A DNA stretch of 64,000 nt. It comes from an uncultured bacterium (lineage in GTDB: Bacteria > Desulfobacterota > BSN033 > UBA1163). Location of the stretch: contig CALLAL010000002.1 of NCBI GenBank assembly GCA_938002255.1, forward strand, positions 1-64,000, given 5' to 3'. The notes under the pieces are model-generated. The model was not told where the DNA came from and ran no database searches. It worked only from the letters and a program-made list of their open reading frames with translations. Shown one piece after another: positions 19,334 to 62,765 of this stretch. The translations under genes and the position numbers were made by a program. The first letter of the stretch is position 1. Every line of letters begins with the position of its first letter.

Positions 19334-20233
19334 TCACCCCTTTTCCACAGGTTCAATGTGAACAACGACGTCCGAGACCCCTTTGAATGCTCTCTTGATC
19401 TTATTTTCAATGGCATTGGAAAGATGGTGAGCCCGGTGGACATCCATCTGTCGATCTACAACAATATGGAGGTCGATATGGATATCATCCCCGCGTCCCC
19501 TGCTCCGAATCTGATGACAAGCCTTGACCCCTTTCATGGCGAGTACCACTTTTTCAATCTCTTCGATCGGAATGGCCACACCGTCGCTCAGGACCCTCGT
19601 GCTTTCTTTCAGTATTTGAACCGCAGCATAGCCAATGAAAAAAGCAATGACCAGAGAGACAATTGGATCTACAATAGGATATCCCCATCGAATTGCCAGG
19701 AGGGTGACGAGAACCGAAACCGAGGTGAGAAGATCCGCCCGGGTGTGCAAACTATCGGAAAGGAGAAGATCGCTCATCAACACTTTCCCTTTTCGACGTT
19801 CATAAACCATCACAAAATAATTGATCGCCATGGTCAGAATCATCACGATAAATGCTGAGCGATCGACATTTGGAAATACAGGATGAATAAACCTCTCTAC
19901 TCCTTCGCGAATCACATTAAAACAGATTAAAAAGAGAAGAGCGGAAATGGCTACGGAGGCAAGAGTTTCGAACTTTTTATGACCATAGGGATGGCTTTGA
20001 TCCATTGGACGGGAAGCAACCCAGATGCCAATCAGCCCGATGACGTTAGAAGAGCCATCTGAGAATGAATGAAACCCATCCGCTTTCATACTCACTGCAT
20101 TGATGATCCACCCGTAAATCAGTTTGGTAATGGCCACCCCCCAGTTGAGGAAAAGAGTGAGGAGTAAGACGCGCCGAATTTTTTGAAACCGATTTTGAGA
20201 ATCGATGCCCGACATCGTTTCTGACTCTTTCAT
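19334..20233 (-). CDS. Cation diffusion facilitator (CDF) metal exporter
   Basis: This 299-aa antiporter exports divalent metal ions (Zn, Fe or similar) using the proton gradient. Six membrane segments lie in about residues 20-215. The metal site reads His 55-x3-Asp 59 in segment 2 and His 163-x3-Asp 167 in segment 5; an HD-HD site is typical of zinc-selective members, so zinc is my first guess. The C-terminal cytoplasmic dimerisation domain (about 215-299) contains the expected His-rich HIDLHIVVD stretch. It is transcribed toward the terminator at 19293-19331 and stands alone. Confidence 0.9.
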   Translation of the reverse strand: MKESETMSGIDSQNRFQKIRRVLLLTLFLNWGVAITKLIYGWIINAVSMKADGFHSFSDGSSNVIGLIGIWVASRPMDQSHPYGHKKFETLASVAISALLFLICFNVIREGVERFIHPVFPNVDRSAFIVMILTMAINYFVMVYERRKGKVLMSDLLLSDSLHTRADLLTSVSVLVTLLAIRWGYPIVDPIVSLVIAFFIGYAAVQILKESTRVLSDGVAIPIEEIEKVVLAMKGVKACHQIRSRGRGDDIHIDLHIVVDRQMDVHRAHHLSNAIENKIKRAFKGVSDVVVHIEPVEKG

Positions 20234-29867: not shown

Positions 29868-30044
29868 TTAATCTCCCTCTTCTAATTTATACCGGAGGTA
29901 TCGCTTGAGGGCGTCGGTTCGATCACAGAACGACTTATCCCCTTCACAGGTCGTGCTTCCGTTATCGATGTCGCAGATACCGATTCCCTTACCCATGCCT
30001 AAACCTTCCGGTCGTCTGAAGAGAGGGCATTGCTCCTCTACCAT
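29868..30044 (-). CDS. Small Cys4 protein B (58 aa)
   Basis: This 58-aa soluble protein has Cys 6, 24, 33 and 40 in the pattern C-x17-CD[IL]D-x5-C-x-GD-x3-C, the same spacing as the gene just upstream. GGAGG lies 9 nt before its ATG, and its start overlaps the upstream stop by 7 nt. Four cysteines in a short basic protein suggest a metal (Zn or Fe-S) site; that is inference. No known family name comes to mind. It is the second gene of a sigma-54/c-di-GMP riboswitch unit. Confidence 0.75.
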   Translation of the reverse strand: MVEEQCPLFRRPEGLGMGKGIGICDIDNGSTTCEGDKSFCDRTDALKRYLRYKLEEGD

Positions 30045-30229
30045 TCAGTCTTTCCTCCCTTTCTCTTTTCCGAAACTAAATGTTTCCTCAAGAGACTTAT
30101 TTTTTTACAAGATTGAAGATCACCCCTACATAGAATCCAGTCGTGATCGAGATCACAATATCCTCTAAAGGAACTCCTATCTGAATTTCCAACTGCCCGG
30201 TAAAAAGAACATCGTTTTGTCGATAACAT
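30038..30229 (-). CDS. Small Cys4 protein A (63 aa)
   Basis: This 63-aa protein, read from the ATG at 30229 (AAAGGA 8 nt upstream), has Cys 7, 25, 34 and 41 with spacing identical to protein B and shared CDLD and RGD/EGD positions. A start three codons earlier (30238) abuts the Shine-Dalgarno site. Its start is only about 22 nt after the U-run of a terminator, so expression depends on read-through set by the riboswitch. The C-terminal third is Lys/Arg-rich. Function is unknown; a c-di-GMP-controlled metal-binding regulator or accessory factor is a guess. Confidence 0.75.
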   Translation of the reverse strand: MLSTKRCSFYRAVGNSDRSSFRGYCDLDHDWILCRGDLQSCKKISLLRKHLVSEKRKGGKTEW

Positions 30230-30250: not shown

Positions 30251-30286
30251 AAATAAAAAAGCCCGTGGTAAAAAGCTGCACGGGCT
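30251..30286 (-). terminator. Riboswitch expression-platform terminator
   Basis: AGCCCGTG pairs with CACGGGCT across an 11-nt loop, followed by TTTTTTATTT. It lies 71 nt after the aptamer and directly before the first Cys4 gene. Confidence 0.92.
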
Positions 30287-30356
30287 TCCGATGATCTATT
30301 ATTCTCCGACAGCGAACAGGGAGGGAACCGAAGGGAAAATAAACCTGTCCGTTCTT

Positions 30357-30555
30357 AGTCAGAGGTTTCGGCAACCCGGCTATCCCTTTGGAGTGGGACC
30401 CCTGCTTGCATGCCATAGTATCGGCCAATCTCTGTAATTGGAAGATTTGGACTGGACTACACTCTTGCATGCAAGCACTCCCGCGCTCGGAAGCGCAGGC
30501 GTGGCTTTCCGCCCCACGATTGCTCGTGGTTTGGCTTTATCGATCCTATCTGACT
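30357..30555 (-). ncRNA. Cyclic-di-GMP-I (GEMM-I) riboswitch aptamer with extended P2
   Basis: P1 is formed by AGTCAGA (30555-30549) and TCTGACT (30363-30357). P1b is CCACGA-GCAA-TCGTGG (30529-30514) with a GNRA loop. Conserved joining stretches AAACC, GCGGAAAGCCACG and TAGCCGGGTTGCCG match the class. Mapped on the Vibrio Vc2 aptamer from memory, the ligand residues G20, A47 and C92 are kept, and the G21-C46 pair appears as C21-G46, a compensatory change. G at 20 favours c-di-GMP over cGAMP. P2 is unusually long, with a perfect 10-bp helix GCTTGCATGC/GCATGCAAGC (30476-30467 with 30413-30404). Confidence 0.85.
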
Positions 30556-30576
30556 ATCTTCTTGATGATATGAATC

Positions 30577-30593
30577 AGCAATTTCGGTGCCAG
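30577..30593 (-). promoter_or_regulatory. Sigma-54 promoter of the riboswitch unit
   Basis: CTGGCAC-N5-TTGCT on the minus strand matches the -24/-12 consensus with correct spacing. The predicted start near 30566 is about 11 nt before the aptamer P1 strand. The sigma factor gene rpoN is in this window. An enhancer-binding activator would be required; none is encoded nearby. Confidence 0.8.
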
Positions 30594-62677: not shown

Positions 62678-62765
62678 ATGAAAAAGGGAAACTGAAAGCA
62701 AAAGATATGCCAATTCAAGGAGGGCTTTAAGCCATCAGAAGGGCTAGGAAAGGTCCACAATGCCT

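Follow-up and report, generated by a model that had tools for sequence, protein, structure and literature searches.

A c-di-GMP-I riboswitch with a P2 helix split by a two-hairpin module that appears derived from a genomic repeat

Riboswitch aptamers are usually regarded as compact, with core helices that cannot be interrupted. The described c-di-GMP-I (GEMM-I) examples Vc2, Vc1 and Cd1, grouped in Rfam family RF01051, share P1, a GNRA-capped P1b, the ligand residues G20, A47 and C92 and an interhelical pair. Cd1 works through terminator control and is an OFF switch (PMC9262584). Two related groups are the c-di-GMP-I-GGC family (RF03167) and the cGAMP GEMM-Ib riboswitches of Geobacter, the known examples of which act as ON switches (eLife 2019, PMC6456294).

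The RNA described here is encoded in a 64,000-nt stretch of DNA, which we call the window. It has the RF01051 features listed above and, like Cd1, is predicted to be an OFF switch working through a terminator. It differs from the RF01051 examples in a 99-nt insert in the P2 5′ strand, in a C21-G46 pair replacing G21-C46, and in a predicted antiterminator that uses the P2 5′ strand. Position 47 is A, whereas the consensus of the RF03167 model has G. It has the same fold as the GEMM-Ib riboswitches and comes from related bacteria, but it has G20 and a predicted OFF rather than ON direction. We consider it probable that this is a GEMM-I riboswitch in which a repeat-derived module splits P2 into a four-way junction, and that it acts as an OFF switch for genes of small cysteine-motif proteins.

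Class, fold and ligand site of the aptamer

The aptamer spans 30556-30356 on the minus strand. The RF01051 covariance-model search of this strand that a preliminary description had proposed yields a match of 39.1 bits (gathering score 35) at 30545-30486, and the class, strand and coordinates given there agree with the RF01051 and RF03167 alignments. The above-gathering match nevertheless carries the wrong 3′ half: its end falls within the insert and it has P2 pairing with the helix A loop of that insert, so automatic annotation would place the 3′ boundary wrongly. The full-length element (30366-30544) aligns best to RF03167, scoring 41.4 bits and falling short of that family's gathering score (59). 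If the compact 60-nt reading at 30545-30486 were the real aptamer and the remainder unrelated, it would have the merit of being the sole reading above a gathering score; the long form is favored by its genuine 3′ half GGGUUGCCGAA, by the P1 strand and by comparison with uninserted relatives, and we rejected the compact reading, to which we give almost no credence, because its 3′ half is the helix A loop. Standard covariance-model searches thus under-score or mis-end aptamers bearing such inserts.

The predicted fold of the long form (204 nt; z = -5.3) is more stable than 200 of 200 shuffles. P1 pairs UAGUCAG (30550-30556) with CUGACUA (30356-30362). The GEMM-I 5′ half (30503-30538), placed by the Rfam alignments, consists of AAAGCCAAACC, P1b with its GCAA loop, and GGCGGAAAGCC; its identity to relatives reaches 96%. 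P1b is CCACGA-GCAA-UCGUGG (30529-30514), and its GNRA loop, like P1, had been recognized before. The P2 3′ strand and the ligand-site 3′ segment lie in CCGGGUUGCCGAA (30367-30379, from the RF03167 alignment).

Window positions were mapped to Vc2 residue numbers by alignment to Rfam. For ligand residues we used the list G20, A47 and C92 (PMC4744006); by alignment to the Rfam consensus their equivalents are G30535, A30508 and C30371, which bears out the G20 and C92 of the preliminary description. The interhelical pair C44-G83 aligns with C30511-G30380. The compensatory C-G swap beside the ligand that had been reported is present as C30534-G30509, but it is not unusual, since C21-G46 is carried by 21 of the 23 related aptamers in which the pair is clearly readable. 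The class and the letters of the ligand site point to c-di-GMP as the probable ligand, and the five GGDEF domains in the genome indicate that c-di-GMP can be made.

The interrupted P2 helix and its insert

In uninserted relatives, including a second GEMM aptamer in the same genome (L001), P2 reads GGAAAGCCACGGGUCCC-loop-GGGAUAGCCGGGUUGCCGAA. In the window 99 additional bases (30499-30401) stand between GGAAAGCCACG and GGUCCC...GGGAUAGCCGGGUUGCCGAA; this layout matches the uninserted P2 on either side of the extra bases, so both P2 halves are present. Joined across the gap, GCCACG (30505-30500) and GGUCCC...GGGAUAGCCGGGUUGCC (30400-30370) reconstitute the P2 found in L001 and other uninserted relatives. 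The normal components kept are the lower helix, with 5′ strand AGCCACG (30500-30506, delimited by comparison with uninserted copies), the CCGGGUUGCC strand, and the GU/AUAG receptor-like internal loop of upper P2 (30378-30400, including the G83 equivalent at 30380), whose layout is identical in uninserted copies and which would serve as receptor for a GNRA loop. Judged by this comparison, P2 is neither expanded nor replaced but interrupted. The earlier proposal that extra structure had taken the place of P2 is accordingly not confirmed, while its view of the architecture as unusual holds for a P2 split by a 99-nt two-hairpin insert.

The insert (I2; 30401-30499, minus strand) sits between G30500 and G30400, where it separates the lower half of the P2 5′ strand from the upper half, and forms two abutting hairpins (z = -5.8). 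Helix A is CCUGCGCU-UCCG-AGCGCGGG (30480-30499); helix B, UGCUUGCAUGC...GCAUGCAAGCA (30403-30477), encloses an inner hairpin and has an outer stem of 11 bp (30477-30467/30413-30403). Helix A, helix B and P2 are predicted to form a near-perfect four-way junction, with lower P2, helix A, helix B and upper P2 as its arms. Such a junction can keep the P2 halves stacked, in which case the ligand site and the GNRA/receptor contact could survive the insertion. A 10-bp helix with a UATGG stretch resembling a tetraloop receptor had been noted here; the helix is real, at 11 bp, but UAUGG (30417-30413) becomes UACGG, UAAGG, UGCGG or CACGG in homologous copies and so is not a conserved receptor, and we rejected that role.

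A covariance model of the insert (R1) was built from six copies with the window left out. It matches the window at 30396-30503 (40.8 bits; E = 3e-7, model E-values being rough) and, among the listed loci, nine further aptamer copies, all at the identical P2 position. In a search of 148 genomes every strong match (about 41 bits and above) is an insert at this same place in a GEMM P2, and these matches come from nine genomes of one bacterial family whose named records are Deltaproteobacteria / Syntrophaceae MAGs; we therefore rejected a freely mobile two-hairpin element. A known Rfam RNA was likewise rejected, as no Rfam family matches the insert, and a search of a phage collection gave no match. 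In the consensus, helix A (CCUGC...GCAGG) is followed directly by helix B (GUGCUUGCA...UGCAGGCAC). Over ten sequences 91.6% of the pair cells of the insert helices form, against at most 53% in slid controls. Six pairs vary on both sides, a count reached in 2 of 500 shuffles; this covariation is modest, coming from ten related sequences in an alignment fitted to the model. The inner loops are variable.

Two other inserts occur in relatives: I1, which adds about 55 nt folded as two hairpins between P1b and P2, and I3, an expansion of the P2 loop by 80-100 nt. DNA searches for I1 and I3 outside GEMM gave only two short partial matches, and apart from these both are found in GEMM copies only, so we rejected them as dispersed repeats. 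I1 is carried at L042, L044-L048, L058, L059, L082-L084 and L093, and includes a hairpin loop of conserved, CCAGAGAUGG-like sequence. Aptamer classes f2 and f3 (L030, L100-L107) have a different P2 loop expansion of about 100 nt, common to many of their own paralogs. Tandem GEMM aptamers occur elsewhere in the phylum (G057:C76:33734-33899, G046:C12:268415-268720 and G028:C15:46700-47060). At L088 / L117, at GGAAAGCCACGCCTGCGTGCCGAAGCACC, an apparent deletion between two TGCCGAA sequences, one in the insert and one in the aptamer, leaves the riboswitch lacking upper P2.

At the orthologous locus, downstream of trxB and a 121-aa gene, the P2 insert is present in three genomes (G000, G003, G009); of five others, G004 has no insert, G006 has I3, and G002, G005 and G007 have I1 with I3. 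In the gene tree, which is otherwise mostly unresolved and could not time the insertion, G003 and G005 are sisters; since their insert states differ, that state changes quickly. The presence of the insert in three orthologs and its absence or replacement in five, the difference between the sister species and the variable inner loops all speak for reading the insert as a passenger, a pair of repeat-derived hairpins lodged at a tolerant spot and contributing nothing to the riboswitch except that it leaves it undisrupted. We put this at a little short of an even chance, as its helices remain paired despite sequence divergence and its two-hairpin form is found in GEMM copies alone, with only a single-hairpin form outside them.

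Relation to a dispersed palindromic repeat

REP-like dispersed palindromic repeats are associated with Y1/RAYT-type transposases and usually have a GTAG/GGAG foot. The weak R1 matches are standalone palindromes, CACGCCTGCGTGCCGAAACGC-(n)-GCACTACGGCGTGCAGGCACG, that belong to a dispersed palindromic repeat of about 44 nt resembling the outer arms of the best-preserved insert copies; in copies such as L082 the outer arms align with standalone repeats over about 21 nt per side. A second model (R2), built from the standalone palindromes, finds the repeat in 14 of 17 genomes of the family and in none of the 23 other genomes searched, with up to 28 matches in one genome, a count in which near-symmetric copies register on either strand and some GEMM inserts are included. 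In the relatives it is, like REP-like repeats, a short and imperfect palindrome with many dispersed, intergenic copies, and Y1 transposase domains (RAYT superfamily), counted per genome, occur in 16 of 17 family genomes. It differs from REP-like repeats in lacking a GTAG/GGAG foot beside the palindrome in the standalone copies read, and in having a two-hairpin derivative in GEMM.

The two arms of the standalone repeat correspond to the outer arms of the insert, and in GEMM a second arm pair fills the middle, which gives two hairpins instead of one. GEMM copies have the two-hairpin form only, and the single-hairpin form alone is found outside GEMM. A dispersed palindromic repeat of related genomes is thus the apparent source of the insert, although descent could also have run from insert to repeat. 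The R2 search recognized no standalone repeat in the window's own genome, and the window insert is diverged (13.7 bits against the repeat model); the link to the repeat hence rests on the relatives, and the insert may have outlived the repeat in this genome or come from elsewhere.

In helix B the internal-loop letters CCGA / ACUA are conserved in most copies, and the insert position is strict, as might be expected of a second sensor or protein-binding domain that made this a two-input riboswitch. The same letters occur in the standalone repeat arms and may be inherited from them, no Rfam family matches, and the window copy has lost most of the conserved letters; we regard such a domain as improbable.

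Among open-access papers, we came across none that describes a repeat within a riboswitch aptamer. In this lineage structured modules are placed at three positions of the aptamer with the ligand residues kept, and the relation of one of the three insert types to a dispersed repeat offers a testable route by which genomic repeats could supply RNA domains. It suggests that repeats can turn into working parts of gene-control RNA. Going further, we tentatively propose, as a reading that may well prove wrong, that the repeat was domesticated as a riboswitch domain, the four-way junction in P2 tuning folding or switching and the aptamers of the lineage serving as a modular scaffold with three insertion sites.

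Promoter, terminator and regulated genes

A sigma54-type (-24/-12) promoter match, TGGCACCGAAATTGCT (30577-30592, minus strand), precedes the aptamer. Of 37 family copies, 36 have such a match upstream, against none of 13 from other families (chance 1e-4). The window holds three such matches against 0.05 expected; the other two are at 20015-20030 and 62697-62712, both on the minus strand.

Downstream lies an intrinsic terminator, AGCCCGUG...CACGGGCU followed by U6 (30255-30286, minus strand), whose 5′ arm region complements the P2 5′ strand. Most family copies show 8-13 bp of complementarity between the P2 5′ strand and a site that lies 15-23 nt ahead of the terminator U-run, and the two co-change at L045 and at L022 (GCCGCGG). 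This complementarity in relatives predicts a c-di-GMP OFF switch. In f2 and f3 copies it is the P2 3′ strand that, as read from the sequence, takes part in the terminator, which predicts ON switches.

In the window, looping out the insert leaves a P2 5′ strand that can pair with the terminator arm at -17.3 kcal/mol (p = 0.017), and in other insert-bearing copies, too, P2 treated in this way still complements that arm. Taken by itself, the contiguous antiterminator helix in the window does not exceed chance (p 0.27-0.37), and model energies even without ligand favor the terminator fold (-116.1 against -110.9 kcal/mol), which makes the window a weaker case for switching. An 8-bp match on the minus strand between the helix A loop (30494-30487) and the terminator foot (30291-30284) is at about chance level for its length and was rejected.

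An antiterminator match and Rfam score weaker than in relatives, together with the interrupted P2, are what one would expect if the riboswitch were degenerate and non-functional in this organism. We find that unlikely, given that the ligand residues, P1, P1b, both P2 halves, promoter match, terminator and downstream genes are all intact. For a functional OFF switch we propose the following. Transcription would proceed from the sigma54-type promoter into the leader of a unit of two genes for small cysteine-motif proteins. As long as no ligand is bound, the P2 5′ strand, its insert looped out, would pair with the terminator 5′ arm and allow read-through; c-di-GMP would stabilize P2, now a four-way junction made by the 99-nt derivative of the repeat dispersed in relatives, and so free the terminator arm for termination.

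The first gene of the unit (30038-30229, minus strand), preceded by AGAAAGGA, encodes a small cysteine-motif protein of 63 aa, and the second (29868-30044, minus strand) a related one of 58 aa; neither has a Pfam or NCBIfam match. Proteins of about 60 aa with the motif C-x-[FL]-[FY]-R ... GYCD[LI]D ... C-x-GD ... C are a recurrent feature downstream of the family's GEMM riboswitches, both in the window and at L006, L011, L034, L042, L047, L058 and L059; they likewise match nothing in Pfam or NCBIfam.
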